From Actinomyces glycerinitolerans (GTDB lineage Bacteria; Actinomycetota; Actinomycetes; Actinomycetales; Actinomycetaceae), in contig NZ_FQTT01000011.1 of assembly GCF_900098745.1 (NCBI RefSeq), positions 220,237 through 284,236 of the forward strand: DNA of 64,000 nt. Direction: 5' to 3'. Positions 64 through 56,071 of the stretch are shown here, piece after piece. Both the position numbers and the translations under genes were made by a program. The notes beneath the pieces are model-generated. The model saw only the letters and a list, made by a program, of their open reading frames with translations. It was not told the DNA's origin and searched no databases. Numbering within the stretch: the first letter of the stretch is position 1; every line of letters begins with the position of its first letter.

Positions 64-180
64 GTGCGGGCCGTGAGAACACGGTCCCCACGAGCAAGGC
101 TCTGCCCGATCTGTCAGACCCCTATGAAGAAGCCCGGCCGCACCGCCGCAGGCACCCAACGGTGGAAGTGCACCGCCCCG
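64..180 (+). pseudogene. transposase N-terminal zinc-ribbon remnant
   Basis: An open frame from an ATG at 64 encodes CPICQTPMKKPGRTAAGTQR followed by WKC. The CxxC, 'GRTAAGTQRW' and trailing WKC resemble the zinc ribbon that opens IS1249/ISL3-like transposases. The frame then runs directly into the GTTGGACC repeat element at 179, and no DDE catalytic core follows. This is best read as the first ~40 codons of a transposase truncated at or by the repeat. Family membership is inferred from the ribbon alone. Confidence 0.5.
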
Positions 181-293
181 GTTGGACCGCCCACGCCCCG
201 TTGGACCGCCCACGCCCCGTTGGACCGCTGTAACCGGCGGCTACGGCGGTCCAACCGGGGAACAGCGGTCCAACCGGGGAACAGGGGTCCAAC
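179..293. repeat. mirrored 19-bp repeat element A
   Basis: Three copies of GTTGGACCGC start at 181, 200 and 219, exactly 19 bp apart. A centre containing GTAACCGGCGGCTACGGC follows. Then three copies of the inverted motif GCGGTCCAAC (the third one reads GGGGTCCAAC) start at 246, 265 and 284, again 19 bp apart. The last left unit and first right unit are 27 bp apart, as in copies B and C at 54.7 and 56.0 kb. The centre is in the reverse orientation relative to B and C. The whole element can fold into one long imperfect hairpin. Confidence 0.85.
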
Positions 294-540
294 AGACAGG
301 CTCAACAGCCACGCACACCGCCACCCAACCGTGCATCGCCACCCAAGCACTTACACAACAGGACCTAGTGAGCCCGGGGGCGCCCGAACCACACACACGT
401 TCGCGCCGACAACCCCGAAGAAGGCCTCTGGGCCCGCAAAGGCTGGGCCGGACGAACCAGCTAGAACACCCCGACACGCCGGTCTAAAGCAACACGTTCG
501 CGCCTATAACCCGCAACAGCTCGCGACCCGCGGGTGATGT
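294..540. other. intergenic, no gene recognised
   Basis: C- and A-rich sequence between element A and the small reverse-strand reading frame. Open frames exist on both strands but have low-complexity Pro/His/Arg/Thr composition and no recognisable domain or ribosome binding site. It is probably decayed mobile DNA. Confidence 0.5.
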
Positions 541-657
541 TCACCGTGGTGCCGCCTCCACCTCCGCCAGCAGTGCCGACGCCACCAGGCCAAAGGCGCC
601 GAGGGGGATGAAGAGTGAGCAAAAGGCCCAGATCTGGCGGACTGTCGTCGAAAGCAT
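541..657 (-). pseudogene. small membrane ORF or C-terminal membrane-protein remnant
   Basis: The reverse strand encodes 38 residues from an ATG at 657. They include one strongly hydrophobic helix (WAFCSLFIPLGAFGLVASAL) and end in AEVEAAPR and a stop. The frame stays open upstream to about 711 without a better start, so this looks like the C-terminus of a larger integral membrane protein that has been deleted. There is no clear ribosome binding site at the ATG. A stand-alone small membrane protein is the alternative. Confidence 0.4.
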
Positions 658-676
658 TCCGCCGATGATCTGGGCC
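625..676. repeat. inverted repeat, 10 bp perfect plus inner pairs
   Basis: GGCCCAGATC (625-634) is the exact reverse complement of GATCTGGGCC (667-676). Inside it, GGCGG (636-640) pairs with CCGCC (659-663). No T-run follows, so it is not a classical intrinsic terminator. It lies inside the small reverse-strand reading frame. Confidence 0.7.
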
Positions 677-825
677 CTTGCGGCTCTGCGCAGCGTCCTG
701 CTAGGCCGCTGAGATCAACATCTCCGGATGTCTCCGGGGAGTCGGGCGGTTGCCGCCGCTCGGCTCCCCATCATTATGGTGACACAGTCGCGCGATCGAC
801 AAGCCCGATCTGCGGATCACCCGTC

Positions 826-2430
826 CTACTCCCACAGCAGCAGCCCGTCGGCCAGCAGGTCGCGCGCGTCGGCGACCATGCGCGCGGTAAGCGCCTCGGC
901 GTCGGCGCCGGTCAGTGCCGCCACGGCGGTGGCGATCTGTCCGACACTCAGCTCACCGTCGGCCACCTCCACCAGCGCCGCCAGCGCCGTGTCCGCCCGC
1001 ACGGTGCGAGCGAAGCCGCCGCCCTGACGCAGCAGGATCACGCTGGGTTCGCTGTCGCCCGGACGCAGGTGGCGCTCCTCGGTGACGTCGGGCGCGACGA
1101 CGGGGTGCAGCGCCGCCACCTCTACGTCGCTCATGGCGGCCAGGCGGCTGCGCGATGCCACAGACGCCGCCACATGCGGTCCGAGCGGGCCCGTCGGCCG
1201 GGTGCCGACCTCCTCCAGCGCCCGCCAGGGCGCACGGCCCCCGGCATCTGCCTCATCCGGCCGGTGCAGCACCACGTAGCCGAAGCCGACGGCCTCCACC
1301 TTCCGGGCGGCGAAGTCGTCGATCCACGCCCCCAGGGCGGCCTCGAAGCCGGTGCGGTCGCGCTCGGGAATGGTGCCGCCGTCGCGCAGCCACATGGTGG
1401 CGTACTCGACCGGGTCCTGCACCTCCCGTTGAATGACCCAGGCGTCGACGCCCTCCGGCAGCCAGCCGCTCACACGCTCCCGCCAGTCCTGGCCGGCGTG
1501 GTGCTCCCAGTTGCCGAGCATGACGGCGATGCCGCCGCCCGTCAGGTGCGCCCCGAGGGCGGGCAGGAGCATCGGCAGAACGGGGCCGCCGGCGTCGCGG
1601 TACTCCATGAGCGGCAGGCCGGCCGCGCGGACCGCCGGCGGAGTGATGACGAAGGGCGGATTGGTGGCGACCAGGTCGAAGCGGCGCCCGGCCACCGGTT
1701 CCAGGAAGGAGCCGCACAGCAGTTCCAACCGCCCGGGGTCGGTGCCGGCGAGGGCCGCGTTGAAGGCGGTGAAGGCCAGTGCCCGCGCGGAGATGTCGGT
1801 GGCGACGACGTGTTCTGCGTGCCGCAGCAGGTACAGGGTCTGGATGCCGCAGCCGCAGCCGAGGTCCAGGGCGGTGTCCACCGGGGTGCGCGGGGTCAGG
1901 CCGGCCAGGGTCAGGCCGGCTCCGCCAATGCCAAGGACGTGGTCGGGGGCCAACTGCCCCTGCGATACCAGCTCCCCCAGGTCGGAGGCCACCCACCAGC
2001 GCACCTCGCCGACGTCGTCGCGCGCCTCGTGGGGGCGCAGGTCGATGGCGGCCCGCACCCGGTCCGCGACCGCGACGACCAGCCCCATGGCCCGGGCGCC
2101 GGCGGAACCGGTGCGCGGCAGGGCCGCGTCCAGTTCCGCTGCGGACACCGGCTCCCCGAGCATGAACAGAGCGGTCAGCACGGCCACGGGGTCGGCCGCA
2201 CCGCCCGGCTCGGCATCGGTGCGGGCGGAACCCTCGGCACTCAGCACCTCCCGCACCCGCCGCAGGGCGGGGTAGCGCTGCTCGCGACGCAGGGCGGCGT
2301 CGGCGGCGGGACCGAGCAGTTCGGCGACGGCGTCCACGCCCCAGCCGGACGCCTCCAGGTCGGCGCGCAGGGAGGCGGCCTGGGCCGGAGTGGCCACGGG
2401 CGGAGGTGGAGCGGTGGGGGCGTCGGTCAT
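826..2430 (-). CDS. class I SAM-dependent methyltransferase with N-terminal DUF7059-like domain
   Basis: This 534-residue protein has a ~150-residue helical N-terminal region. A Rossmann methyltransferase core follows: the SAM-binding motif is DLGCGCGIQTLY near residue 200, an acidic ATDISARAL strand comes next, and the catalytic-type NPPF motif (ATNPPFVITPP) lies near residue 265. NPPF/NPPY is the mark of N-methyltransferases acting on glutamine, adenine or guanine, so a PrmC- or RsmC-like substrate is possible but unproven. The C-terminal ~200 residues form an accessory domain. It is the last gene of a minus-strand run but is separated from tadC by about 100 bp. Its own substrate cannot be read from the sequence. 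Confidence 0.85.
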   Translation of the reverse strand: MTDAPTAPPPPVATPAQAASLRADLEASGWGVDAVAELLGPAADAALRREQRYPALRRVREVLSAEGSARTDAEPGGAADPVAVLTALFMLGEPVSAAELDAALPRTGSAGARAMGLVVAVADRVRAAIDLRPHEARDDVGEVRWWVASDLGELVSQGQLAPDHVLGIGGAGLTLAGLTPRTPVDTALDLGCGCGIQTLYLLRHAEHVVATDISARALAFTAFNAALAGTDPGRLELLCGSFLEPVAGRRFDLVATNPPFVITPPAVRAAGLPLMEYRDAGGPVLPMLLPALGAHLTGGGIAVMLGNWEHHAGQDWRERVSGWLPEGVDAWVIQREVQDPVEYATMWLRDGGTIPERDRTGFEAALGAWIDDFAARKVEAVGFGYVVLHRPDEADAGGRAPWRALEEVGTRPTGPLGPHVAASVASRSRLAAMSDVEVAALHPVVAPDVTEERHLRPGDSEPSVILLRQGGGFARTVRADTALAALVEVADGELSVGQIATAVAALTGADAEALTARMVADARDLLADGLLLWE

Positions 2431-2528
2431 AGGGGCGACCGTACCGCTTTACCGCGCGCCGGCCACCGCGGGCCGCACGCGTATCCGGTCGTGCCCACCG
2501 CAGCCAGCCGCCCCGCCGTCTCCCGGGT

Positions 2529-3809
2529 TCATCCGGCCAGCATGTCCACGCCTACGCTGAGCACCACCGGGACGATCCCCAGGATGATGAAGGCCGGCAG
2601 AAAGCAGGTGCCCAACGGCAGCACCAGTCGGACCGCCAGGCGCTCGGCGGCCTCCGCGTCTGCGGCCTGCCGGCCGGCCCGCAAGGAGGCGGCGGTGCCG
2701 GCGAGCAGCGGCGCGGGCGAGGCGCCGTCCTCCCAGCCCGGCCGCAGGCACGCCTCGAGCCGGCCGTAGCGGCGCGGCCCCCGCGACTCCGCCCAACCCC
2801 ACCACCGGCGTCGGTGCGGCCCGTTCGCGGCACCACCCTCCTCGGCGCCATCCTGCGAACCGTCCGCGGCAGCGCCCACTCCCCCGCGTCCGGCCCGCCA
2901 TGCCTCGTCCCAGTCGGCCCCCAGCAGCAGGGCCCGACCGACCACGCCCAGCATCTCGTCGTCCAAGGCCCGCCCCAACGCCTGCAGCGTCCCCGGCACC
3001 GACGCGCCGGCCGCGAGCGCGGCCCCGGCCAGGTCCAGGACGAGGGCCTCATCAACCTCCTCCGGGGCGGCAGCCGCGGCCGCGACCAGCCTTCCGGTCA
3101 GCCAGTGGCCGACGCCCATGAGGACCACGCCGGCCACCCCCAGGGCACTGCCCCAGCCGCCGTCGAGGAGCATCCGCCCGGGATGAGCGCCGACCGCGGA
3201 GCCGAGCAGCAGCCCGACCGGCGGCAACAGGGCCAACAGGCGTGCGGTGGACCGCGGCCCGGACAGGGCGGTGCGGCGGGAGGCGTCGGCGTGCCCGGAG
3301 TCGGCCACTCCCCCGGCGACGGCCTCCAGCACACCCGCGAGCGGGGCGCCGAGCGCCGTTGTCAGTCGGCAGGCGGCCACGGCCCCGGGCACCGCCGCGG
3401 CGGTCAGACGCCGACGGGCGTTGCGGGCGCGGCGCCCCGGCAGCGGCGGCTCCCACTGCCAGCGTCCCGCCCGGCGGCGGGGCAGCCAGCCCGTGGGAGG
3501 CTCCCGGGCGAGGGCGCGCAGGGCGGGTGGGACGCCGTCATCGTCGGGCCGAGTGCCCTCGCTGATGCCGGCGCGCTGGAAGGTGCGCTCCCAGGCGCGC
3601 TGCGGGGTCGCGCCGGAGCGCAGCAGGGTGGCGACCTCGGTCAGCACCAGTCCGAGGTCGAGGTCCTCGGCGCCGGGTCGGGGTGGTCGGGCCAGGCGTC
3701 CGGCGTGGTGGGTGCCGAGCGCGGCCGGGGGCTCACGCCGGGCGGGCAGCAGGATCACCGCGGCGGCCAGGGCCACCAGCAGCCCGGCCAATACTTGCGC
3801 GCCGCTCAT
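2529..3809 (-). CDS. TadB/TadC-like type II secretion F-domain protein (fused)
   Basis: A 426-residue inner-membrane protein with two type II secretion system F-like domains in one chain. The first contains LGLVLTEVATLLRSGATPQR near residue 55. The second contains LVLDLAGAALAAGASVPGTL near residue 260. Hydrophobic segments precede and follow each. This is the arrangement expected if TadB and TadC, normally separate platform proteins of the Flp/Tad pilus, are fused. Its start overlaps the end of tadA by 4 bp (ATGA), so the two are translationally coupled. No Flp prepilin, TadE or TadF gene lies downstream: the next gene is a methyltransferase. Confidence 0.85.
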   Translation of the reverse strand: MSGAQVLAGLLVALAAAVILLPARREPPAALGTHHAGRLARPPRPGAEDLDLGLVLTEVATLLRSGATPQRAWERTFQRAGISEGTRPDDDGVPPALRALAREPPTGWLPRRRAGRWQWEPPLPGRRARNARRRLTAAAVPGAVAACRLTTALGAPLAGVLEAVAGGVADSGHADASRRTALSGPRSTARLLALLPPVGLLLGSAVGAHPGRMLLDGGWGSALGVAGVVLMGVGHWLTGRLVAAAAAAPEEVDEALVLDLAGAALAAGASVPGTLQALGRALDDEMLGVVGRALLLGADWDEAWRAGRGGVGAAADGSQDGAEEGGAANGPHRRRWWGWAESRGPRRYGRLEACLRPGWEDGASPAPLLAGTAASLRAGRQAADAEAAERLAVRLVLPLGTCFLPAFIILGIVPVVLSVGVDMLAG

Positions 3810-5140
3810 GTTCGGCTCCTGCGTCCGCCCGCGCGGGTGCGCCTCGGAGACTCGGCGTTGGTCACCGGCGCCACTGCGTCCGGGGCGGGGCTCCGCGCGG
3901 CGTCGACACCCAGGGCGGCGGCGATGGGTGTCTCCCCGATCCGTGCGGCCAGGCGGTCCACGCCGGGACCGGCCGTCACCACGCCGTCGGTGCCGACCAC
4001 CAGGGCGTCCCGACAGCGCATCCGCTCCCCGTCCCGCTCCAGTACCCCGACGGCGACTACCCGGCGCAACGTGGTGGTGCCGGGTCGGGCCTGGCGGCGC
4101 AGATGGACGACGGCGTCGAGGGCGCTGACGGCCTGGGCGGACACGGCGGTCTCACCCATGCCGGCCAGGGCGCCCAGCGCGGTCAGGCGGGCGGGAACGT
4201 CGGCGGGCGAGTTGGCGTGGAGGGTGGCCCAGCCGCCCTCGTGGCCGGTGTTGAGCGCGGTCAGTACGTCGCGGACCTCGGGGCCGCGGCACTCGCCGAG
4301 CACGATCCGGTCCGGCCGCATGCGCAGGGCGGTACGCACCAGGGTGGTCATGGGGACGGCGCCGACACCCTGAACGTTCTCCCCGCGCTCCTGCAGGTGG
4401 ATGACGTGCGGGTGGTCGGGGCGCAGCTCGCTGGCCTCCTCAATGCACACGATCCGTTCATCGCCGGGCACTCGCCCCAGCAGGGCCGCCAGCAGGGTGG
4501 TCTTGCCGGTGCCGGTGGCGCCGGTGACCAGGCAGTTGGCGCGGCATTCCACGAGTGCGGTCAGGACGGCGTCCATGCCGGGGACGATGGTGCCGGCGGC
4601 GACCAACTCGGGCAGGGTGAAGGCGCGGCGCCGTTTGGTGCGCAGGCAGATGAGGGTGCCGTCGGCGCTCAGCGGCGGCAGGACGGCGTTCAGGCGGGTG
4701 CCGTCGGGCAGGGTGACGTCGACGATGGGGCTGGCGTCGTCCAGGCGGCGACCGCAGGCAGCCGCCATGCGCACGGCCAGCGCCCGCGCCTGCGTCTCCG
4801 GCAGGCCGGCGTCGGGGACCGGTTCGAGCCCGCGGCCACGGTCGATCCAGGTGCAGCCGGCGCCTACGAGCACGTCGGTGACGCCGTCCAGCTCCAGCAA
4901 AGGCTGTAGGACGGGGCCGGCACCCGCGACGTCGGCGCGCACGTGTCGGGTGAGGCGGGCCAGGCCGCCCGCGCCGGTGGTGGGGGCGGCCCCGGAGCCG
5001 AGGGCGGCGTCAAGGCTGGCGCCGTGAGCCAGGGCGTTGCGCACCCGGGCCAGCTCGTCGCGGTCGGCGTCCCCGGCGCCCGTTCCCGGAGCTTCTGCCG
5101 GGGTGATGCCCGGGCCGACCGGTGAGGATGCGGCTACCAT
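3806..5140 (-). CDS. tadA: TadA/CpaF family secretion ATPase
   Basis: A 444-residue hexameric-type secretion ATPase of the VirB11/CpaF family that powers Flp/Tad pilus assembly. Visible motifs are Walker A GATGTGKTTLLAALLG near residue 207, the Asp-box region RIVCIEEASELRP, Walker B RPDRIVLGECRGPEV, and the His box GHEGGWATLHANSP. The N-terminal domain carries the usual VTDVLVGAGCTWIDRG strand. Its start overlaps the upstream ssd-like gene by 7 bp and its end overlaps tadB/C by 4 bp, so ssd-tadA-tadBC form one operon. Length is normal for the family. Confidence 0.93.
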   Translation of the reverse strand: MVAASSPVGPGITPAEAPGTGAGDADRDELARVRNALAHGASLDAALGSGAAPTTGAGGLARLTRHVRADVAGAGPVLQPLLELDGVTDVLVGAGCTWIDRGRGLEPVPDAGLPETQARALAVRMAAACGRRLDDASPIVDVTLPDGTRLNAVLPPLSADGTLICLRTKRRRAFTLPELVAAGTIVPGMDAVLTALVECRANCLVTGATGTGKTTLLAALLGRVPGDERIVCIEEASELRPDHPHVIHLQERGENVQGVGAVPMTTLVRTALRMRPDRIVLGECRGPEVRDVLTALNTGHEGGWATLHANSPADVPARLTALGALAGMGETAVSAQAVSALDAVVHLRRQARPGTTTLRRVVAVGVLERDGERMRCRDALVVGTDGVVTAGPGVDRLAARIGETPIAAALGVDAARSPAPDAVAPVTNAESPRRTRAGGRRSRT

Positions 5141-6225
5141 GACGCGCCCTCGGGTGCTTCGACGTCGCCCAGCAGTCGTTCGGCGACGGCGCGCGCCTGG
5201 GCGCGCAGGGTGCCGCGGCCGCGGGTGGGATCGTCACCGCGGGCGATGCGCTGGGCGACGGTGCGCTCGTGCGGGAGGACGGCGAGGATCTCGGTGCGGG
5301 TCATCAGCGCCAACTCGTCGGGGCTGACGTCCTCGCCGAGCTTGCGCACCACCGTGTACAGCCCGGGTGGCGCGTCCGCCCCCGCGCCCGCCGGGGCGGT
5401 ATCCCGCCTCGCCGCCTGGAACCGCGCGGCCAGGGCCTCCGCGGCGACGGCCGAGCGCAGGTCGAGCCCGGACACCAGCAGGACGGTGGCGCCCTGCGGC
5501 ACCGGCCACCCGCGGGGCAGGTCGAGCAGCACCAGGTCATGCTCGGCGCGCAGTGCGTCCAGGACGGGGCGCAGCTGCTGCGGATCGTGGGGGCCGCCGC
5601 GCCCGTCCCCGGTCAGCACGGGCATGCCCAGCCAGGTGGGCAGGGCGGTGGTGAGTTTCTCCGGGCGGAAGGCGGGCTCGTCGTCGGGCAGGTCCGCCCA
5701 GCGCAGCCCGGGCAGTACGCCGTCCCCCATGAGCAGGCCCAGGCAACCGGCGGGGTCGGCGTCGACGATGGCGACGCCGCTGCCGCGGGCGTGGCAGGCG
5801 CGCGCCAGATGCAGCAGGAAGGTACTGGCGCCTAGTCCGCCCCGCGCACCGACAACAACCAGGAGCCGGGCCCGCGGCGGATGCTGCGCGGACAGCAGCA
5901 GGACGAGGAGGTGGTCGGCGCCGTCGGGGGCGCAGCAGCGCTCGAGGCCGCCCACCACGATCCCCGGTTGGGTGGGTACCTCGGGGCTCCCCTGCCGCGT
6001 CAGCAGCAGGACGGCGGAGGTATCCGCTTCGGCGAGCAGGGCCCGGGCGGAGCCGAGCGGATCCTCTCCGGGCACGGTGACGACGGGTTCGGCGCCGGTG
6101 CAGGCCCGCACGATGTCCGCCGGGAAGCCCTCCGGGACTGCGGGCGGTTGGGCGGCAGGCTGCGCGCCGTCGGCGGTGCCGGCGAGGAGTACCCGCACGT
6201 TGGGGACGAGTGGAGCGGTTTCCAT
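5134..6225 (-). CDS. ssd: CpaE/Ssd-like MinD-family ATPase
   Basis: A 363-residue protein starting at the ATG at 6225, which has a good ribosome binding site (GCAGGAGG, 4-5 bp upstream). The longer upstream open frame has shadow-like composition. The C-terminal two thirds are a ParA/MinD-type P-loop domain with a deviant Walker A, VVVGARGGLGASTF, followed by VAIVDADPAG and a LVLLDLPRG Walker B-like strand. The N-terminal ~110 residues look like the pseudo-receiver region of CpaE. In mycobacteria the homologous gene next to tadA is Rv3660c (ssd). Probable role: localisation or regulation of the Tad machinery or septum site. The deviant Walker A is GxRGGxGxST rather than GKGGVGKT, so ATPase activity is uncertain. 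Confidence 0.85.
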   Translation of the reverse strand: METAPLVPNVRVLLAGTADGAQPAAQPPAVPEGFPADIVRACTGAEPVVTVPGEDPLGSARALLAEADTSAVLLLTRQGSPEVPTQPGIVVGGLERCCAPDGADHLLVLLLSAQHPPRARLLVVVGARGGLGASTFLLHLARACHARGSGVAIVDADPAGCLGLLMGDGVLPGLRWADLPDDEPAFRPEKLTTALPTWLGMPVLTGDGRGGPHDPQQLRPVLDALRAEHDLVLLDLPRGWPVPQGATVLLVSGLDLRSAVAAEALAARFQAARRDTAPAGAGADAPPGLYTVVRKLGEDVSPDELALMTRTEILAVLPHERTVAQRIARGDDPTRGRGTLRAQARAVAERLLGDVEAPEGASW

Positions 6226-6371
6226 GGGGCCTCCTGCGCGACGATGCCGGACGGTCGTGACTCGTGCCGACCGCCAACAGGGTGCGCCGGGAGCCGGCAA
6301 TGGTGCCGGCGGCCTGTGGATAGCGTCCGCGCGGGGTGTCTTGAACCGCGCCTGTGGGCTCCGGTCGCGGC

Positions 6372-7367
6372 TCAGCGAACGGCGGTGGTCCCGGCCAGGA
6401 CGGAGCGGCAGATGGCCTGCCCCTCCTGGATACCGACGAGGATCGCCTCCGCCTGCCAAACGATCCAGTCGATCACGCCGTCGGGCTGCCCGGAGGCGTA
6501 GGCGGCGGCCGCATCGGCGTAGGCGCCGGGCGCGCGGCCGGCGTACTGGTCGGTGACGGCCACGCCGGTGGGTTCCAGCCCGTCGCGGGTGATCAGGTAG
6601 CGCACCAGCAGCCGACCGACGGCGGCGTTGGCGGCGATGAAGGGGCGGGCGGTGATCATCTCGCCGTGTACCACGGCGGCGCGCACGAGCGCGGGGACGC
6701 CGGGAAGGTCGAGGAGGCTGAGCAGGGCCGCGATGCGGTCCCGCAGTGCGGCGGCGTCGGGAGCCGCTCCGGGGCCGCCCTCGCGCGGGGACACCCCCGG
6801 GGCGCGCGGGATGGCGACCGCGTCCAAGGGGATTTGTCCGGTAGCGGCGAGGGGGCCGGCGACGTCGCGGTGCAAGGCGGTCAGCAAGGTGCGGGGGCTC
6901 GGTTGGGCGGGTCGGGCGGGGCCGCCCAGGTCGGGCATCCACTCGCCCAGGCGCACGCCGGCGCGCCACAGCCCGGCGGCGGCGTCTAGGGAGGGATCGC
7001 CGGTGGCGGCCTCGGCCAGGCCGCGGGCGGCGACGGCGTCGCGCAGCACCGCGGCGGGCAGGACGACGCCCTCGACGGCGGCGGAGGCGATGGCGCCACG
7101 TATTGCGGTCTCGGCGCGGGCCTCGCGCCAGCGGCGACGTAGGGCCTGGTGCCAGCGCAACTGCGTGGAGGCGTCGCGCACGGCATCCTCGGCGCGCTTG
7201 ACCCGCGGGTGAGCGGCGAGCGCCTCCAGTGCCCGGACGGTGGGATCACTGGTGCGCGCAGGCCGCTGGTGCCGCGCGCGTGGCGCGCCCGCGGACTCGG
7301 CCGCGCGCACGGACGGCACCCCGCGCGCCGGCCGCTCGCCAGGCGGCGGTCCGATCGACACCCCCAT
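6372..7367 (-). CDS. Fic-fold protein with degenerate active site
   Basis: This 331-residue protein has the helical layout of Fic/Doc proteins. At about residues 240-251 it has RPFIAANAAVGR, which aligns without gaps to the Fic core HPFxDGNGRxGR. The catalytic His is Arg, and the acidic, Gly and NGR residues are replaced (AANAA). The flanking VVHGEMITA and GRLLVRYLITRDGL are well conserved. Adenylylation is therefore unlikely: a structural or regulatory role is more probable. It is the first gene of the minus-strand run ending in tadBC. The start is chosen at 7367 because upstream codons fall in the divergent promoter region; there is no strong ribosome binding site. Confidence 0.7.
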   Translation of the reverse strand: MGVSIGPPPGERPARGVPSVRAAESAGAPRARHQRPARTSDPTVRALEALAAHPRVKRAEDAVRDASTQLRWHQALRRRWREARAETAIRGAIASAAVEGVVLPAAVLRDAVAARGLAEAATGDPSLDAAAGLWRAGVRLGEWMPDLGGPARPAQPSPRTLLTALHRDVAGPLAATGQIPLDAVAIPRAPGVSPREGGPGAAPDAAALRDRIAALLSLLDLPGVPALVRAAVVHGEMITARPFIAANAAVGRLLVRYLITRDGLEPTGVAVTDQYAGRAPGAYADAAAAYASGQPDGVIDWIVWQAEAILVGIQEGQAICRSVLAGTTAVR

Positions 7368-7444
7368 GCTGATCACGGAGCCACTGTAGGCGTGCGGGCG
7401 GAGCCCGCCACAAGCCGGTGCGCATGCGACTGCGTCGCAAACAC

Positions 7445-7529
7445 CCGTTATGTGCAACGCACCAAGAGCAGATGTCACACAAGTGCCCGTTGTATGCAAA
7501 GTTCCTCTGGAACATGTCACACAAGTGCC
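7445..7529. repeat. 42-bp tandem duplication upstream of the broken fic gene
   Basis: ATGTCACACAAGTGCC occurs at 7472-7487 and again at 7514-7529, 42 bp apart (four helical turns). The preceding segments (CGTTATGTGCAAC and CGTTGTATGCAAA) also align, so the whole 42-bp unit is duplicated with the 5' half diverged. It ends 12 bp before the ATG at 7541 and lies in the divergent promoter region, so operator sites are a reasonable reading. Confidence 0.75.
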
Positions 7530-7540
7530 GTTAGGCTGAC

Positions 7541-8577: not shown

Positions 8578-8945
8578 CTGCGTACGGGTGGTTACTCGCT
8601 TCGATAGAAGACGGCTTCGTAGGCGTTTACGGGCACGTCGTGTCTCCTGGCTGGCGACCTACTACGACGACGACGCGCGACGGATCCGTCGTGCCCGCCG
8701 CAGAACTCGTCTGCTACGCCACTTCGCCGTTTGGTACGCCGGTTAGAGGTCCGCTGTATACCTCGGAGGCCTTCAACAGACCGCTAAGTGGCGTAGCAGA
8801 GCACAAACCGGCGCAGTAGGCGGTCAAGTGGACAGGCACCCAGCACCGCCGTCCAAGTTGGGGCCTCGGCCCCGCAAGGCCTGCGCAGCTTGTCAAGGAA
8901 GCGACCGGTGCTGTCTGATGTCATAGGTCCGGTACTGTGCGGGAC
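8578..8945. other. intergenic region with a 14-bp inverted repeat
   Basis: No gene is recognised. CTGCTACGCCACTT (8711-8724) and its exact complement AAGTGGCGTAGCAG (8786-8799) form an inverted repeat around a 61-bp loop, which could be the ends of a small non-autonomous element or a large hairpin. A related but imperfect copy of the right arm (GCGCAGTAGGCGGTCAAGTG) follows at about 8811. Confidence 0.55.
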
Positions 8946-46770: not shown

Positions 46771-46795
46771 AATATGTCATCACTTACGTGAATCG

Positions 46796-48653: not shown

Positions 48654-50017
48654 TCCGGGCGGCCTGGCGCGGCGTGCGCATGCGGCCCGGTCCCGCTCTC
48701 CTGCTTGCCGTGGTCGTCGCCGCGGCCACGGTCATCATGGTCGGCGCCTTCGCGCTTGTCGCCGCCGACCGGGACGGCGGATCGGTGGTAAGCGGACAGG
48801 CCGACTCGTTGGCTCGGGCCGGCACAAATGCACTGGTGCTGGGCCTCGGCGGCTTGACGGGACTCATGCTCGCGCTGATCGTCGCCGAGGCGTTCAGCAC
48901 GAGCCTGCGTCGGCGCGCCGGGGTGTTCGCGCTCCTGCGGGCCACCGGGGCGTCCACGTCGCTGTTGGCGGGGGCCATCCTCCTCCAGGCGCTCGTCATC
49001 GGCCTGTTGGGCAGTGCGCTCGGCCTGCTCGGCAGCATCGTGGCGCCGCGCCTGCTCACCGCCGAACTCGCCTCGGCCCTCAAGCCGACCTGGGACTCCG
49101 GCGAGGCGCTGCTGCCGCAGGAGCTCGCCGTCGGCACGGCCCTACTGGCCACGCTCGTCGGCACCCTGCCGCCCGCCTTACGCGCAGTCACCGCCCCACC
49201 GGGGACGACGCCGGCCGCGCCCTCCAAACCGCAGCAGCCACCGCCGGCACGCGGCGTCATCGGCGCAGTGTTGCTTGTTGTGGGTGCGGTTGGCAGCGTC
49301 GTGGTCTGGCGCGTGGATGTCCTGCCTCACCGCGTCGGCGTGCTGTGGGCAGCGGCCGGAGTGCTGCTCGTCGGGCTGCTCATTGCACTGCCGCAGGCGG
49401 TGCGCGCGCTGGTCGCCGTATTGGGACTGCCGGCGCGACTCGGTTCCAGCGGCCGGCTGGCGCTGCGGCAAATGACGGCAACACCCCGCAGTGCGGCCAC
49501 CATCGCGGTGGCCCCGCTGCTCGCCACTGCGGCGGTCTGCGCGGGCGCGCCGCTCGCCGTCTCACTGCGCGCCACCGTGGCGGATGAGGCCGTCCCCGGA
49601 CGGGCGGCTGCACAACTGGATGTACTGCCCACGTTGCTGATCTGTGTGAGCGCACTCGCCGGTCTGTGCGCAGCCGGAGCCCTGGCGGCATCGGCCGCTG
49701 AGCGGACGGGTGAGAGTGCGCTCATGCGAGCGGTAGGGCAGGGCCGCGGGCAACGGGCCGCGCAGCTCCTGTGTGAATTCACTCTCGCCTGCGTAGCCGG
49801 ACTGGTCCTGGGCGCGGCGACCGGACTGCTGCTGGCCGGGGCGGGAGGAGCCGTGCTGGCCGACCAGGGAATTGGCGGCTTCGCGATCCCCTGGCGGCAA
49901 CTGCTGCCACTGCTGGCGATCGGCTGCGGCGTCGGCGTGCTATCCGCGCTGGCACCGGTGCTGAAACCAGCACCGCAAGTCGTGTCAACCACAGAACCGG
50001 ACGGGGCGCCTGCATAA
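48650..50017 (+). CDS. FtsX/MacB-like ABC permease
   Basis: A 455-residue membrane protein starting at GTG 48650, overlapping the ATPase stop by 4 bp. One N-terminal helix, a very short extracellular part, then two FtsX-type helix bundles: LGLGGLTGLMLALIVAEAFS with RRRAGVFALLRATGAS, and LAGLCAAGALAASAAERTGE with MRAVGQGRGQRAAQLL. It lacks the large periplasmic domain of MacB. It acts with the preceding ATPase in export or signalling (bacitracin-type systems). No two-component genes are adjacent. Confidence 0.85.
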   Translation: MIRAAWRGVRMRPGPALLLAVVVAAATVIMVGAFALVAADRDGGSVVSGQADSLARAGTNALVLGLGGLTGLMLALIVAEAFSTSLRRRAGVFALLRATGASTSLLAGAILLQALVIGLLGSALGLLGSIVAPRLLTAELASALKPTWDSGEALLPQELAVGTALLATLVGTLPPALRAVTAPPGTTPAAPSKPQQPPPARGVIGAVLLVVGAVGSVVVWRVDVLPHRVGVLWAAAGVLLVGLLIALPQAVRALVAVLGLPARLGSSGRLALRQMTATPRSAATIAVAPLLATAAVCAGAPLAVSLRATVADEAVPGRAAAQLDVLPTLLICVSALAGLCAAGALAASAAERTGESALMRAVGQGRGQRAAQLLCEFTLACVAGLVLGAATGLLLAGAGGAVLADQGIGGFAIPWRQLLPLLAIGCGVGVLSALAPVLKPAPQVVSTTEPDGAPA

Positions 50018-50146
50018 CCCCGCCCCAGTCCGTTACCATGCCATTACCTTCCCGTAAGCCCGCGATGAGGTGGTCGACTCTTGTCGGCTCTCGCCGCACC
50101 CGGCCACTGGAGGTACCAGACCCGCCCGCGCCTGTTGAGGAATGCC

Positions 50147-50758
50147 ATGGCGAAAACCACCATCTTCATCTTTCATCCCGATCTCAGCCAGTCCACCATC
50201 AACCTGCGCCTGGCGCAGGCGGCGGAGGGACTGGAAGGAGTCGAGATCCGCGACATGTACGCCCTGTACCCCGACTTCAACTTCGACGTCGAGGCCGAGC
50301 AGGACTTGCTGGAACGCACCGATCGGATCGTGCTTCAGTTCCCGATCCAGTGGTACTCCAGTCCGCCGCTGTTGAAGAAGTGGGAGGACGACGTCCTGAC
50401 CTGGGGATGGGCCTACGGCACCAACGGAGACGCCCTGCAGGGCAAGGAGCTGCTGCTGGCCGTGTCCGCCGGCGCCGTGGCCGCACACTACCGGCGCTTC
50501 GACACCCGCCGTTCGGTGACCGACGTGCTGTTCCGACGGCGTCGGCGCGATCGGGACGCCGCCTCCTCCGGCTACACCATGAACGACGTGCTGCGCCCCT
50601 TCCAGGCCACCAGCGTCATCATCGGCACCGACTACCTGGAGCCCTTCGTCACCCCGGGGGCGACGACGATGCACACCGCCGACCTGGAGGCGCGGGCCAA
50701 GGCCTACGCCCGCTACGTGACCTCACGCAAGCTGCGCATCCTGGACACCTACCAGTAG
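50147..50758 (+). CDS. flavodoxin-fold NAD(P)H oxidoreductase (MdaB/KefF-like)
   Basis: A 203-residue quinone-reductase-type flavoprotein from ATG 50147 (GAGG site upstream). Characteristic strands are TIFIFHPDLSQSTINLRLAQ, VEIRDMYALYPDFNFDVEAE, and IVLQFPIQWYSSPPLLKKWE (the FPxxWYSxPxLLKxW motif). AYGTNGDALQGKELLLAVSA follows. An insertion of Arg residues (FRRRRRDRD) at about residue 128 interrupts the usual TxGG loop region. It probably reduces quinones or electrophiles. Confidence 0.87.
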   Translation: MAKTTIFIFHPDLSQSTINLRLAQAAEGLEGVEIRDMYALYPDFNFDVEAEQDLLERTDRIVLQFPIQWYSSPPLLKKWEDDVLTWGWAYGTNGDALQGKELLLAVSAGAVAAHYRRFDTRRSVTDVLFRRRRRDRDAASSGYTMNDVLRPFQATSVIIGTDYLEPFVTPGATTMHTADLEARAKAYARYVTSRKLRILDTYQ

Positions 50759-50928
50759 CGCCCGCCGCTCGGCCGGTGTCGGGGCCCCGACACCGGGTCC
50801 GCTCCCGGCACGGGCACCCCGGCATGGACCGGAACCCGCGCCGACGCCTATTCCCGCCTTCGAAGCGTCCCTTCCCACACCGATCGGGCGGCGCCCGTTT
50901 GCTCGGGGGCGGCTAGCCTCATGCCACC

Positions 50929-52914
50929 ATGGCCGACTCTCGAATGCCCCGCGCCGCCGTCCGACGGCTGCTGCCGCAGCCCGACGCCCCGCTCCCCCAG
51001 CCGCCCGTCGGCACGTCACCGGGGAGACTGCTGCGCTGGCTGCTGCGCCGCGCCGCCGCACCGCTGGCAGTCGCCACCGCGGCGGCGATCGTCTCCAGCA
51101 TTATCCAGGCGATCGTGCCGTCCTTCCTCGGCGCCGCCCTGGACGCGGGCATCGAGCATGGCCTGAACCCGCGCGTGTGGGCGATTGCGCTGACCCTGCT
51201 GGGGCTGTTCGTGGTCTACGCGGTGGGCGACACCCTGCTGTCCTACTTCCGTGTGCACGGGTGGATGCGAATCAACTTCGACATCACGCGTCTGGTGGGG
51301 CGGCAGGTGTCCACCACCGGCGCCGACTTGCCCCGGCAGGTCTCCTCCGGGGAGGTCGCCTCAATCGTCGCCTCGGACGCCCAGTACATCGGAAACTTCG
51401 CCGAGCGGCTGCCGGAGCTGATCGGGTCCGCCTGCGCCTTCCTGGTGGTGGCGGTGGTCATGCTGAGCACGTCGGTGCGGCTGGGCGTGATCGTGCTGGT
51501 GGGGATGCCGGTGGTGGCGTGGGCGATCACCCCGGTTATCCGGCCGTTGCAACGTCGCCAGTCGGTGCAGCGGGAGGCACAGTCGGCACTTACCACCATC
51601 ACCACCGACACGGTGGCGGGTCTGCGGATTCTGCGCGGGATCGGCGGGGAGGACGTGTTCGCCCACCGCTACCGGGAGGCCTCCCAGGAGCTGCGGCGCC
51701 GTGGCGTCGACGTCGCCGGGGCCCAGTCGCTGTTGATGAGCCTGCAGGTGCTGCTGCCGGGACTGTTCGTCGCCGTCGTCGTGTGGGCGGCGGCCCGCAT
51801 GGCCATCACCGGGGCGATCACGGCCGGTGAACTGGTCACCTTCTACGGCTACACCGCCTACCTGTCCTGGCCACTGATGGTCTTCTCCTACTCGGTGCAG
51901 GACTTCACACGCGCCCTGGTGGGCAGTCGGCGCCTGGCGCGCCTGCTCGCGGTTGAACCGGTCGCCGGGGGCGTTGCCGAACGGCTGGTGCTCGATCCGG
52001 CCCGCCCGGTGCCGGTCGACGGCGAGCTGGTGGACTCCGCCTCGGGGGTGGTGCTGGCGCCCGGGCGCATGACCGCGCTTGTCGCCGCCGATCCGGATGC
52101 CTCCGCCGCGCTGGCCACCCGCCTGGGCCGCTTCGACGACGCGGCTCCGGCCGTCACGCTCGCCGGGCGGGCCCTGACCGACATGCCCTTGGAGCAGGTG
52201 CGCGCCTCGATCGTGGTCTCCGGGGCGACGGCGCAGCTGTTCACCGGCACCCTGCGCGAGGCGCTGGACGTGCGCGGCGGGGCGGCACCCGCACCGGTTG
52301 ACGTTGTCACTCTGGTGGCCGCCGAACGAGAGCGGTCCGGGGTCGCCGATGTGGACCAGAACGTGCACGCGGCGGTGACCCGCGCGGACGGCGACGAGCG
52401 CCTGCTGGCCGCCCTGGAGGTGGCCGACGCCCACGACGTTCTCTCCTCCCTGGACCTGGGGCTGGCGGGCATGATCACCGAGCGGGGGCGGTCACTGTCC
52501 GGCGGGCAACGGCAGCGCGTGGCGTTGGCCCGGGCGCTGCTCACGCAGGCGCCGACGCTGGTACTGATCGAGCCGACCAGCGCTCTGGACTCGCATACGG
52601 AGGCCCGGGTGGCGCGGCGGGTACGCGCCGCCCGCACGGGGCGCACCACGATCGTCACCACCGCCTCCCCGCTGGTGCTGGAGGTCTGCGATGAGGTCGT
52701 CTTCCTCGACGACGCCGGCCGCGAGCGCCTGCGCGCCCCGCACCGAGAGCTGCTGGCCCGCGCCCGGGCCGGTGACCCCGACGCCGTCGCCTACCGCGCC
52801 GTCGTCGCCCGGGCCACGGGGGAGCAACCGCAGGCGGGCACGACCCAAACCCCACGGACCCCGCCGTCGGCGCGACCGAACGCCGTCGCCCCCACCGAGG
52901 AGGCGACCCGCTGA
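50929..52914 (+). CDS. ABC exporter half with degenerate nucleotide-binding domain
   Basis: A 661-residue fused membrane-NBD protein with six helices (residues 45-330). In the NBD the P-loop region reads ALVAADPDASAALATRLG near residue 380, without GKS/T. The Q-loop is lost (VVSGATAQLF) and Walker B is LVLIEPTSALDS (Asp to Ile). The H-loop His is replaced (IVTTASPLVLEV). Only the signature LSGGQRQRVALARALL is intact, near residue 522. The gene is coupled to the next by TGATG. This half can thus only contribute the signature to the partner's ATP site. Confidence 0.88.
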   Translation: MADSRMPRAAVRRLLPQPDAPLPQPPVGTSPGRLLRWLLRRAAAPLAVATAAAIVSSIIQAIVPSFLGAALDAGIEHGLNPRVWAIALTLLGLFVVYAVGDTLLSYFRVHGWMRINFDITRLVGRQVSTTGADLPRQVSSGEVASIVASDAQYIGNFAERLPELIGSACAFLVVAVVMLSTSVRLGVIVLVGMPVVAWAITPVIRPLQRRQSVQREAQSALTTITTDTVAGLRILRGIGGEDVFAHRYREASQELRRRGVDVAGAQSLLMSLQVLLPGLFVAVVVWAAARMAITGAITAGELVTFYGYTAYLSWPLMVFSYSVQDFTRALVGSRRLARLLAVEPVAGGVAERLVLDPARPVPVDGELVDSASGVVLAPGRMTALVAADPDASAALATRLGRFDDAAPAVTLAGRALTDMPLEQVRASIVVSGATAQLFTGTLREALDVRGGAAPAPVDVVTLVAAERERSGVADVDQNVHAAVTRADGDERLLAALEVADAHDVLSSLDLGLAGMITERGRSLSGGQRQRVALARALLTQAPTLVLIEPTSALDSHTEARVARRVRAARTGRTTIVTTASPLVLEVCDEVVFLDDAGRERLRAPHRELLARARAGDPDAVAYRAVVARATGEQPQAGTTQTPRTPPSARPNAVAPTEEATR

Positions 52915-54650
52915 TGGCACTGCCCGTAGCCCCCGGCAAGGTGGCCATGCGCAAGACCTTCGGGATCATGGCCTCCTACCGCATGCGCTTCGTGTGGGTG
53001 CTGATGTTGCAGATCACGGCGGTGCTGGCCACTTTGGTGGCCCCGCAGCTGCTGGGTCGGCTGGTGACTCGCGTGTCCGCAGGCACCGCCACCGTCGACT
53101 ACGTCGACAAGATCGTCCTGGTGATCGTCTTGGTCACGCTAGTCGGCGCGATTATCAATCGGTTCGCCCAGCTGCGTGCACGCACGCTCGGGGAGTCGGT
53201 GTTCGCCGACCTGCGTGAGCGCATGATGACCCGCGTGGTGCACCTGCCCCTGTCCGCCGTCGAGTCCGCGGGGACCGGCGACCTGGTGGGGCGGACCACC
53301 AATGACGTCTCTCGCATCGAGTTCCTGGTGCGGGTGGGCGTGCCCCAGATCATGGTGTGTACGGTGACGATCGTGTTCACGATCGCCGCGGCGGCGGTGT
53401 CGGATCCGCTGCTGGCGGCGGGGCTGCTGCTGGTGGGCCCTCCGGTGTGGGCGATGATGAGCTGGTACTTGCCGATCTCGGTGCCCGCCTACCGTGCCGG
53501 CTCTGCCGCCGATGCGCGAGTCAACGGCGTCGTCTCCGAGACTGTCGACCACGCCTTCACCGTCGACGCCCTGGGGATTGGCCGCCGCCGGGAGGAGGTC
53601 ATCGCCGCGTCGATCGCGGAGGCCTGGAGCCTGGAGAAGTTCACCGCCTGGCTGCGACTGCGCCTGTACCTGGTGCTGGACGTGGCCTGGCGCGCGCCGG
53701 TGGTGGTGATCCTGTTGTGGGGCGGTTTCCTGGCCTCCCGCGGCTGGGCGAGCCTGGGGGCGATCACCACCGTGACCCTGTACGCCATGGAGCTGCGCAA
53801 GCCGATCGGCCAGCTGATGTACTGGATCGACCAGGTGCAGGTGTCCCAGGCGTCGCTCACGCGCATCCTGGGGGTGGAGGAGGTGCCCGAGGACCGTACT
53901 CCCACCGGGGCCGTGCCCGAGGACACGCGTATGCGTCTGCGCGATGTCCGCTTCTCCTACCGCCGGGGCGTGGAGGTGCTGCACGGCATCGACCTGGATC
54001 TGGTGCCCGGGGAGCGGCTCGCCGTCGTCGGCCCGTCGGGCTCTGGCAAGTCGACGCTGGGGCGAATGCTGGCGGGCATCAACCCGCCCACCTCCGGGTC
54101 GGTGACGGTGGGCGGTGTGCCGTTGACGGACTTGACGGAGACGGAGCTGCGCCGGCATGTGGCCCTGGTGACACAGGAACAGCATGTGTTCTCCGGCACG
54201 ATTGCCGACAACGTGCGCCTGGGCCGCCCGGACGCGGACGACGCCACCATTGCCCGCGCGATCACGGCCATCGGCGCGCAGGCGTGGGTGGAGGCGCTAC
54301 CCGATGGCATGCACACGCGGGTTGGCTCGGGAAACCTGACGCTCACGCCCGCGCAGGCCCAGGAGGTGGCGCTGGCACGATTGGTGCTGCTCGATCCTCA
54401 TACGCTGATCCTGGACGAGGCGACCTCCCTGCTGGACCCCCACGCCGCGCGCACCCTGGAGCGGACGCTGTCCACGGCGCTGGCTGGGCGCACGGTGATC
54501 GAGGTGGCGCACCGGCTGTACACCGCGCAGGACGCGGACCGGGTGGCCGTCATGCTGGATGGGCGGATCGTGGAGCTGGGTACGCATGACGAGCTGGTCG
54601 CCCGCGGCGGGGAATACGCGAGCCTGTGGGAGGCCTGGAGCCAGGAGTAG
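52914..54650 (+). CDS. ABC exporter half with intact P-loop and lost signature
   Basis: A 578-residue partner of the preceding half-transporter. Six helices are followed by an NBD with canonical Walker A VVGPSGSGKSTLGRMLAGIN near residue 372, Q-loop LVTQEQHVFSGTIADNVRLG, Walker B LILDEATSLLDPHA and H-loop EVAHRLYTAQDADRV. The signature is replaced by LTLTPAQAQEVALARL (no GGQ). With the first half this leaves one complete composite ATP site. Substrate is unknown; the class includes multidrug, lipid and siderophore exporters. Confidence 0.9.
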   Translation: MALPVAPGKVAMRKTFGIMASYRMRFVWVLMLQITAVLATLVAPQLLGRLVTRVSAGTATVDYVDKIVLVIVLVTLVGAIINRFAQLRARTLGESVFADLRERMMTRVVHLPLSAVESAGTGDLVGRTTNDVSRIEFLVRVGVPQIMVCTVTIVFTIAAAAVSDPLLAAGLLLVGPPVWAMMSWYLPISVPAYRAGSAADARVNGVVSETVDHAFTVDALGIGRRREEVIAASIAEAWSLEKFTAWLRLRLYLVLDVAWRAPVVVILLWGGFLASRGWASLGAITTVTLYAMELRKPIGQLMYWIDQVQVSQASLTRILGVEEVPEDRTPTGAVPEDTRMRLRDVRFSYRRGVEVLHGIDLDLVPGERLAVVGPSGSGKSTLGRMLAGINPPTSGSVTVGGVPLTDLTETELRRHVALVTQEQHVFSGTIADNVRLGRPDADDATIARAITAIGAQAWVEALPDGMHTRVGSGNLTLTPAQAQEVALARLVLLDPHTLILDEATSLLDPHAARTLERTLSTALAGRTVIEVAHRLYTAQDADRVAVMLDGRIVELGTHDELVARGGEYASLWEAWSQE

Positions 54651-54662
54651 GCCCGCCCTCCG

Positions 54663-54874
54663 CATGGGAAAGCGAGTGCCATGCCGTTGGACCGCCGCGC
54701 CCCCGTTGGACCGCTGTTCCCCGGTTGGACCGCTGAGCCCCCGTTGGACCGCCGTAGCCGCCGGTTACGGCGGTCCAACCGCGCGTAAGCGGTCCAACCG
54801 CGCGTAAGCGGTCCAACCGCGCGTAAGCGGTCCAACCGCGCGTAAGCGGTCCAACCGCGCGTGAGCGGTCCAAC
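54663..54874. repeat. mirrored 19-bp repeat element B
   Basis: It begins with CATGGGAAAGCGAGTGCCA (54663-54681), identical to the start of element C. Four GTTGGACCGC units begin at 54686, 54705, 54724 and 54743, then six GCGGTCCAAC units at 54770, 54789, 54808, 54827, 54846 and 54865. Register is exactly 19 bp in both arms, with 27 bp between them. Left-arm linkers vary, whereas right-arm linkers are nearly identical (CGCGTAA), suggesting recent expansion of the right arm. It lies between convergent genes and may also act as a terminator. Confidence 0.9.
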
Positions 54875-54888
54875 CGGGCTGAACCGCA

Positions 54889-55815
54889 TCAGCGCACAGG
54901 GCGGATACCAGCTCCAGCAAGGATCTCCAGCAGACCTTGTTCCCTCCAGGCGTCGTCCCAAAGCCAACGTACGACTCGCATGCCGGTAGCGCTCTCAATG
55001 TCAAGCTCTCGGCGCCGCTCGGCGAGTAGGACCTCATCCACCGGTCTGCCCGTCAGCTCCCGTCCGTACTTAACCCGACCGTCGAACTCCCCGATCACGC
55101 CGTGCTCAGGCCAGATGAAGTCCACCCGTCCAAGCAGCCCGCCGTGCCGATCCCGCACCGGCTCCTGCAAAGCGGGCATGGGTAGGTGATGTTCGATCAT
55201 CACCGCCCGGCTCAGGCTCTCTCCCGGTGACTCGGCATTCGGATCGGCCACCTCGATCGTCCGGTACAGCCTTGGTCGTCCCCGCGAGCGCTCCGGAGCC
55301 GCAGCGGCGATATCCTCCTTCGTCACTCGACCGGCTCTCAGCATGGCGTCAAAGCCGGCCAGTACATCGCGCAGTGGGCGACGACGTCCAAGATCCGCCA
55401 AGGTCTGCGCCACCGAGGCCACCGGGACGCCATCGTCCAGCACGGTCTGGAAGCCGTGGCCGGCACGCAGCGTACGAATCCCCGACGACATTCGTCCACC
55501 GTCGCGCCCGGGTCGTACCACCTGCACCTGTTGAGGAATCGCTCCTACGAGAGGGATGCCGTGTATCACGGCAGCAGACTCCCTGGCCAGTACGGCACCA
55601 TCCAGTGCCCCGGTGAGTTGGGCAGCGATCACCTTGACCACGTGTGCCTGCTGCCTACTCAAACTGCTGAACTCACTTCGCCGCACGTAGACACCGCGAC
55701 GGATACGAATGAGTTCTCCTCCAGAACGCGCGGCTTCTTGAGCGAGGACGTCGCTACGCCGCCCCTGTCCGGCGAGATCCGAAGACAAAATGATCGGAAT
55801 CGGTGAAGTCCACAT
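54889..55815 (-). CDS. AbiEi-like regulator with C-terminal DUF559/Vsr-like nuclease fold
   Basis: A 308-residue protein from ATG 55815 (weak GTGGA site). The first ~170 residues resemble AbiEi-type antitoxin/winged-helix proteins (IRRGVYVRRSEF, VLARESAAVIHGIPLVGAIP, VASVAQTLADLGRRRPLRDV). The C-terminus has the DUF559-like pattern LGRVDFIWPEHGVIGEFDGR then VKYG (D ... E-x-D-G ... K), and ends MRVVRWLWDDAW. No AbiEii toxin is adjacent. The gene is bracketed by direct copies of the mirrored 19-bp element (B downstream, C upstream). AT content is higher than in neighbours, consistent with acquisition. Confidence 0.75.
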   Translation of the reverse strand: MWTSPIPIILSSDLAGQGRRSDVLAQEAARSGGELIRIRRGVYVRRSEFSSLSRQQAHVVKVIAAQLTGALDGAVLARESAAVIHGIPLVGAIPQQVQVVRPGRDGGRMSSGIRTLRAGHGFQTVLDDGVPVASVAQTLADLGRRRPLRDVLAGFDAMLRAGRVTKEDIAAAAPERSRGRPRLYRTIEVADPNAESPGESLSRAVMIEHHLPMPALQEPVRDRHGGLLGRVDFIWPEHGVIGEFDGRVKYGRELTGRPVDEVLLAERRRELDIESATGMRVVRWLWDDAWREQGLLEILAGAGIRPVR

Positions 55816-55935
55816 GTTTCCACTGTGCACACCGGCAGTGGCGTGCATCCGAAGGCCTGTGAATGCGCCGAGCGGTGCCCTGCGCGAACCCGGCCTGTGG
55901 ACCTTGGTGAACTTCGGCGACGCGGCCGCCCTCCA

Positions 55936-56071
55936 CATGGGAAAGCGAGTGCCACGCCGTTGGACCGCTGAGCCCCCGTTGGACCGCCGCGCCCCCGTTG
56001 GACCGCCGTAGCCGCCGGTTACGGCGGTCCAACCGCGCGTAAGCGGTCCAACCGCGCGTAAGCGGTCCAAG
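55936..56071. repeat. mirrored 19-bp repeat element C
   Basis: The 19-base header of element B recurs exactly at 55936-55954. Three GTTGGACCGC units begin at 55959, 55978 and 55997, then three inverted units at 56024, 56043 and 56062 (the last one diverges after GCGGTCCAA). Header-to-first-unit distance (23 bp) and centre gap (27 bp) match element B. It lies upstream of the AbiEi-like gene. The rest of 55816-56301 holds no recognised gene. Confidence 0.9.

Follow-up and report, generated by a model that had tools for sequence, protein, structure and literature searches.

What purpose do long mirrored arrays of a short repeat serve between the genes of an Actinomyces genome, and does a protein go with them? 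The question is raised by a 64,000-nucleotide stretch of the genome of Actinomyces glycerinitolerans (contig NZ_FQTT01000011.1; this whole stretch is hereafter the window, and the genome that holds it is G000). It contains three such arrays, A, B and C, each made of direct GTTGGACCGC units, a centre step and then inverted units, and a solitary gene, P0001, lies between B and C (Table 1). We consider that the arrays are probably the cognate recognition elements of the AbiEi-DUF559 nuclease-like protein encoded by P0001, and that arrays and gene together form a two-part, probably selfish element.

Mirrored arrays and the gene between them

The initial annotation of the window described three copies with 3-4 direct units, a 27-bp centre step and 3-6 inverted units, and the units, orientations and coordinates were all confirmed. 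Every unit step in the window is 19 bp and every centre step 27 bp, with one mismatch in the final unit of A and one in the final unit of C. As had also been noted, B and C carry an identical 19-base header, CATGGGAAAGCGAGTGCCA, starting 23 bp ahead of the first unit, and the centre of A is on the opposite strand relative to B and C. Near-matches to the unit number 29 in the window versus at most 19 in dinucleotide shuffles of it, and with RNA parameters each array folds into a predicted hairpin of much greater stability than its dinucleotide shuffles (B, z = -11.2; C, z = -10.6; A, z = -7.7), which agrees with the earlier view of a defined repeat family that can form long hairpins. Repeated binding of a protein, the other function then suggested, appears most likely from the comparisons below; the cognate gene between B and C had been missed.

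Array B is placed between the convergent stops of an ATP-binding cassette (ABC) transporter gene, which ends at 54650, and P0001, and array C lies about 143 bp upstream of the P0001 start. Residues 9-168 of P0001 match AbiEi (PADLOC, E = 2.1e-8). When P0001 and 27 homologs were aligned and compared with 12 proteins from DUF559-scoring loci by hhalign profile comparison, the match was 99.8% (E = 2.2e-27), and E195, E199, D232, E243, D245 and K249 were invariant in the 28 aligned sequences. The available text of PMC12907096 describes DUF559 as a PD-(D/E)XK, Vsr-like domain. Pfam and NCBIfam scans of the single P0001 protein gave nothing and missed DUF559, and the 28 aligned sequences matched only AbiEi_1 (4 members) and AbiEi_4 (1 member) in Pfam. 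No relative of P0001 was found by sequence in PDB, and a single-sequence AlphaFold model (predicted local distance difference test score 38) was not used. At the level of sequence, P0001 qualifies as a homolog of DUF559 and PD-(D/E)XK nucleases, with a conserved D..ExD..K pattern and a putative nuclease activity. Counts of PF04480 per genome did not single out array-positive genomes. In the window, no toxin gene (AbiEii nucleotidyltransferase) lies beside P0001, its neighbours being the ABC transporter gene and a holin-X-like gene.

Table 1. Positions of the arrays, the probable cognate gene and associated features in the window
Feature	Position	Strand	Description
Array A	181-293	+	3 direct + 3 inverted GTTGGACCGC units, 19-bp steps, 27-bp centre step
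Array B	54686-54874	+	4 direct + 6 inverted units
Array C	55959-56071	+	3 direct + 3 inverted units; direct repeat of B
Header of B	54663-54681	+	19 bases, identical to C header
Header of C	55936-55954	+	19 bases, identical to B header
P0001, probable cognate gene	54889-55815	-	solitary, 308 amino acids; AbiEi-like N-terminal part, DUF559/Vsr-like PD-(D/E)XK-type C-terminal part
Right terminal inverted repeat of the miniature element carrying A	349-368	+	ACTTACACAACAGGACCTAG; same repeat around other copies
Open reading frame start left of A	64-180	+	reads CPICQTPMKKPGRTAAGTQRWKC; same flanks recur at several other copies

The family of the window's repeat

Among the 59 genomes searched, G000 being one of them, 4 contain the exact two-unit motif GTTGGACCGC-N9-GTTGGACCGC: G000 with 77 copies, its relative G029 with 77, G005 with 9 and G012 with 2. 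The reversed-pattern control gave 0, which answers the concern of the initial annotation that the motif might recur elsewhere only by chance. A scan of the collection found the motif in Actinomyces succiniciruminis, A. ruminicola and A. ruminis, the only other record being a single pair in a Chloroflexota bin (L062).

Spacing and unit number were determined in 82 arrays (34 in G000 and 48 in G029) from 77 fetched loci. When the centre gap was allowed to be 4 to 34, every exact centre, 30 of them in G000 and 36 in G029, had a gap of 17, and the centre step was 27 in 82/82 arrays. Same-direction steps between units were 19 bp in 374 of 413, 20 in 36 and 17-18 in 3, counts that carry a mild bias since units with two mismatches were kept only at a distance of 19 or 27 from another unit. 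The spacing thus does not vary freely; the earlier claim that it is invariant holds for the centre and was too strict for the units, and the accompanying claim of varying unit number is borne out, with 1 to 8 units per arm. Arrays of the window's type are 75-417 bp long, composed of 19-20 bp units, and lie inside a predicted gene in 2/48 cases in G029 and 0/34 in G000. An extreme array in G005 (L165:5439-5855) has 3 units in one arm and 19 in the other, and two identical arrays with identical flanks lie 2451 bp apart in G029 (L139:3884-3977 and 6335-6428).

A covariance model of the element, built from 24 centres, matches 18 of the 49 genomes of the genus, own included. In the model's own alignment, pairing was 86.5% versus 83.2 in controls and the covariation score was 0.161 versus 0.117 +/- 0.011 (shuffled and slid controls); pairs changed on both sides were no more frequent than in shuffles (9 versus 10.2 in that alignment).

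A ruler shared by different sequences

To look beyond one sequence, we used a motif-blind scan for X..X..rcX..rcX with periods of 12-30, applied to three 400-kb systematic samples (G005, G007 and G020), the window and 60 ortholog loci. It gave 26 arrays, in which B and C are counted twice (window and ortholog locus), against 1 in mono-nucleotide shuffles; the periods were (19,19) in 17, (20,20) in 6 and other in 3, and the 400-kb sample of G007 contained no array. The cores differ among these arrays (TTGGACC, GGACCAC, TCGACCG, GGACAAC, CACGACC, ATCTCGT). Mirrored arrays of 20-bp period with the cores CACGACC (G005, G064) and ATCTCGT (G020) were seen at L271:3695, L194:551, L296:10893, L299:6764 and L307:11505. 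When the DNA downstream of orthologs of the ABC gene was read in 30 cases, several carried a hairpin of a different sequence type, or dialect, at that place.

For 41 hairpins in the flanks of P0001 homologs, with 12-30 allowed, the best direct period was 19 alone in 26, 20 in 2 and 18 in 3. The repeats form a class, mostly with a prevailing 18-20 bp ruler (31/41), that differs in sequence between protein clades; the initial annotation had overlooked that the window's sequence is one dialect of this wider class.

Most homologs of P0001 are bracketed by repeats

Homologs were found in 46 of the 49 genomes of the genus. The flanks (450 bp upstream and about 400 bp downstream, with gene calls made heuristically from guanine-cytosine content by codon position) were compared for 50 homologs, comprising 29 genes, one per genome, and 21 more (13 second or third copies in sampled genomes and 8 from further genomes). 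The duplicate L374 was dropped. L359, which has an internal stop, does not enter the alignment, and L370 contributes its flanks but is absent from alignment A2. With a local score of at least 60 taken as a shared repeat, 39 of the 50 homologs had a repeat common to both flanks. Control genes drawn from the G005, G007 and G020 samples had one in 4 of 694 cases (Fisher, 2.5e-50). In 38 of the 50 homologs the score was reached in direct orientation. Hairpins of at least 14 were present in both flanks of 11/29 homologs versus 0/300 sampled controls, and in either flank of 20/29 versus 41/300. The flank repeats displayed were mirrored arrays or hairpins of many dialects.

Three of the four positive control genes were examined. 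Two are the same 436-amino-acid open reading frame with inverted ends, integrase-like by its motif, and the third is a DUF559-like gene with a weak MTES_1575 match. Among other DUF559-family genes, 3/18 (L321, L337 and L319) reach the flank-repeat score, with other sequences. In G020, a dispersed palindrome, GGCTCCCATGTGC-N15-GCACATGGGAGCC, occurs in 11 copies in the 400-kb sample, and two copies lie as direct repeats on either side of a 319-amino-acid DUF559-like gene that matches MTES_1575 weakly (L308:11500-13100); this appears to be another, independent system of the same type.

Across the order, a search with the 28-row alignment at a cut-off of E <= 1e-15 gave homologs in 252 of 396 genomes, spread over 77 of 109 genera. 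Flank repeats at a score of at least 60 were found in 7 of 24 loci of other genera, the control genes being those of the Actinomyces samples only, and in G182 a mirrored CGACGGCGGCACAG array lies on both sides of the homolog. Four distant records of homologs are on plasmids, and a search of phages gave no homolog.

The dialect follows the protein

Dialects were compared for the 36 of the 50 genes having a flank hairpin. The dialect was shared in 36 of 38 pairs at a protein identity of at least 70% and in 1 of 592 pairs below 70%. Common descent of whole loci inflates these counts, and paralogs and dispersed copies serve as better controls than ortholog pairs. None of the 6 same-genome paralog pairs shared a dialect. 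Of three paralogs in G008 with three dialects, two match the dialect of the nearest protein elsewhere (G068 and G018), and each of the two homologs in G011 has the dialect of its own clade elsewhere. In addition, where a locus has a hairpin on both sides, the two resemble each other much more (median 111) than they resemble those of other loci (median 16; 17 loci; 0/10000 permutations).

Other dialects are scattered through genomes as well. An independent dialect, GCCGGGCATTNNTCGCGTAGCCC, is found in 7/49 genomes, with 15 matches in G003 and 18 in G006 when each half-hairpin is taken as one, and 0 in the control. It flanks the homolog in G003, G006, G001 and G011 and also occurs elsewhere, including 3' of recR in G003; in G022 and G060 there are copies and no homolog of that dialect was found. 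In G024, the gene lies between repeats of the GGACAAC dialect on one contig, and on another contig this dialect stands gene-less after the ABC gene. For the window's own dialect, 18 of the 49 genomes are array-positive by the covariance model, 18 have a homolog of at least 180 bits and 13 have both (p = 1.3e-4, at a cut-off picked after inspection of the table). Array-positive genomes lacking a strong homolog are G066, G014, G021, G061 and G064, with truncated ones in G014 and G021; those with a strong homolog and no model match are G008, G023, G034, G032 and G004, and they have flank repeats of other dialects.

The same locus with and without the gene

G000 and G029 show the order array-gene-array at the ABC locus, and in G066 there is one array and no homolog at this place, the ABC protein of G066 being identical over the 216 residues compared. 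To the left of the G066 array, a short flank of about 22 bp, compared by eye, corresponds to the flank of copy B in G029. The flank of B in G000 resembles that of C, which suggests conversion of the B flank there. From the array onward, G066 aligns with the C array and its right side (window 55960-56663; 613 of 675 G066 bases identical). The G066 site is what recombination between B and C, or insertion in reverse, would leave, as judged from this static comparison of one locus with and without the gene. By coordinates, at least 7 genomes have a homolog beside this ABC gene, in both orientations.

Insertion sequence-like carriers

Many of the arrays are associated with a miniature insertion sequence (IS)-like element that has the terminal inverted repeat (TIR) CTAGGTCCTGTTGTGTAAGT. 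Both TIRs lie within 420 bp of 13/34 arrays in G000 and 16/48 in G029, a single TIR is near 12/34 and 17/48, and none is near 9/34 and 15/48. Copy A, inside such an element, is of the carrier type, a passenger status missed by the initial annotation; no such TIR was found at B or C, which are among the 24/82 arrays of the two genomes without any TIR near. The carrier of A seems to sit within a second repeated element, because the same flanks recur at other copies. By its motif, the open reading frame start to the left of A looks like a transposase zinc ribbon; its Pfam scan gave 0 matches. The miniature element has a CTAG/TA-like target and is found at many loci of G000 and G029, where it carries many arrays; some copies have an apparent remnant of a transposase C-terminus (by eye), and others are nested in a second repeated element. 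An assembly gap of ten N bases directly precedes window position 1 (L083) and separates two near-identical array carriers; a tandem duplication may have been collapsed or mis-joined there.

Alternative explanations

The arrays might act only as operators, bound by an AbiEi-like regulator, or by a solitary antitoxin or defence protein, that controls its own and other genes with no mobility. In the available text of PMC7319586, AbiEi and Rv2827c bind 23-bp inverted repeats in their own promoters, four in the case of Rv2827c, without cross-binding, and many P0001 homologs have an array some 105-280 bp upstream. We regard this explanation as unlikely, since arrays also lie 3' of the gene as the direct copies counted above and at dozens of other sites, and the nuclease-type residues of the C-terminal half are invariant. 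Nor do the arrays favour divergent gaps, which hold 10/34 arrays in G000 (0.34 of intergenic bases) and 3/46 classed arrays in G029 (0.17).

That the arrays are transcription terminators or messenger RNA 3'-end hairpins without a partner protein is still less probable. In its favour, the hairpins are very stable, B fills precisely the gap between two convergent stops, arrays come after recR in G005 and after the ABC gene in several species, and G029 shows a mild tilt, with 20/46 arrays in convergent gaps against 0.32 of intergenic bases and a deficit in divergent ones. In G000 there is no tilt (convergent 9/34 against 0.23), a 3' gene end is within 60 bp in only 5/24 (G000) and 3/43 (G029) cases, and the ruler, the bracketing of one gene family and the protein-following dialects are left unexplained.

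Slightly less probable again is that the arrays are debris of IS5-like miniature inverted-repeat transposable elements (MITEs), incidentally linked to the gene: copy A and the other arrays with one or two TIRs would fit, and we rejected a MITE-only origin because B, C and other dialects lie outside carriers and the hairpins of other species, different in sequence, bracket the same gene family with a mostly similar ruler. Iterons, clustered regularly interspaced short palindromic repeats (CRISPR), DNA uptake sequences and parS sites were considered and dropped, the units here being in dispersed mirrored arrays with a bracketed gene.

A proposed two-part element and the points against it

Recognition of the arrays by the P0001 protein, within a two-part element, accords with what the comparison of genomes has brought together: the bracketing, the prevailing ruler, dialects common to close homologs only, the dispersal and the difference in gene presence at one locus. 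The winged-helix-type N-terminal half would bind half-sites of about 10 bp, two or more in tandem facing two or more inverted, and the nuclease half would nick or cut at the array or at the extruded hairpin. Repair by homologous recombination could then copy the array-gene-array unit into gene-less arrays in a homing-like manner, and could also delete that unit and add or remove 19-bp units. Arrays may reach new sites partly by riding IS5-like miniature elements in G000 and G029, as around A.

Several observations weigh against this proposal. At a score of at least 60, 11 of the 50 homologs have no repeat common to both flanks; 2 of them are at contig ends, 3 are truncated and 6 are unexplained, several having an array on one side, and the flanks in G005 carry different variants on the two sides (score 33). 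In 10 of the 41 flank hairpins, 18-20 bp is not the sole best period, another being best or tied. Orthologs at one locus share flanks by descent, so that the 36 of 38 pairs are not 38 independent events, and independence of genes that are in fact related is likewise assumed in the Fisher values. For proteins less than 70% identical, similarity between hairpins is not correlated with protein identity (Mantel rho = -0.06), and co-divergence therefore appears only as a threshold. Many arrays persist in G066 in the absence of a close homolog, and GCCGGGCATTNNTCGCGTAGCCC copies are present in G069, where no homolog was found. At least one IS-like TIR is near 25/34 arrays in G000 and 33/48 in G029, and array number is therefore partly owed to the carrier. 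Finally, binding, cutting and movement are what we infer from comparison.

Relation to known systems

To our knowledge, dispersed palindromic repeats of bacteria have one well-documented kind of protein partner, the REP-associated tyrosine transposases (RAYTs), REP standing for repetitive extragenic palindromic. Among the matches listed, literature searches gave no description of these repeats or of the two-part system, and the matches listed for the unit 10-mer were unrelated by title.

The system is closest in behaviour to that of RAYTs and REPINs, the hairpins formed by REP doublets. According to the available text of PMC3116915 and PMC8266576, the likeness lies in a single-copy gene whose cognate palindromic repeats both flank it and lie scattered over the genome, a repeat type that goes with the protein, and mobility inferred largely from comparison. 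RAYT/TnpAREP is an HUH-family transposase acting on single strands, whereas the protein here is AbiEi-DUF559 (PD-(D/E)XK-like), and REPs are short palindromes with a GTAG-type tag, whereas mirrored half-site arrays with a mostly 18-20 bp ruler are found here. The window's arrays are not 20-40 nucleotide palindromes with a GTAG/CGTC end tag, and no common end tag was seen by eye; several dialects do have GTAG in their stems (window centre, G031, G011 and G068), and the flank hairpins of G024 and G030 lack it. No HUH/Y1 transposase was found among the 28 aligned sequences with Pfam. Because the defining transposase and palindrome tag are absent, we do not file the system as a member of REPIN-RAYT.

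Other systems share single features. AbiEi and Rv2827c have a related N-terminal part and bind several inverted sites, with no cross-binding between the two members (available text of PMC7319586), whereas P0001 has no adjacent toxin gene in the window, its arrays are also 3' and dispersed, and it has a C-terminal nuclease-type domain. As with homing endonuclease genes, a nuclease-type gene is flanked by its presumed target and the site is found with and without the gene; unlike them, P0001 is not in an intron or intein, its presumed target is a dispersed multi-copy array, and cutting would have to be assumed. VsrA of Caulobacter is a solitary DUF559 protein of the PD-(D/E)XK superfamily, but it is tied to cytosine methylation, and the available text of PMC12907096 mentions no repeats. 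MITEs are alike in that copy A travels in one, and differ in that arrays also occur outside MITEs and in other dialects.

The finding may extend beyond the window's dialect. With our confidence evenly balanced, we suggest that there is an undescribed class of two-part selfish DNA across the order Actinomycetales, in which solitary AbiEi-DUF559 nucleases, and possibly others of the DUF559/MTES_1575 type, would each own a private array dialect, would be bracketed by its arrays as direct repeats, and would spread or convert them by targeted cutting and recombination. A non-homologous, nuclease-type family appears to have evolved a RAYT-like lifestyle, its repeats keeping a ruler of about 19 bp and its dialects changing fast. 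This gives a testable role to a large orphan family and offers many natural protein-site pairs for reading DNA specificity. It also points to AbiEi antitoxin being the wrong label for some genes; if the proposal is true, many orphan genes now called 'AbiEi antitoxin' or 'DUF559' would encode enzymes of REPIN-like elements, not antitoxins or repair enzymes.

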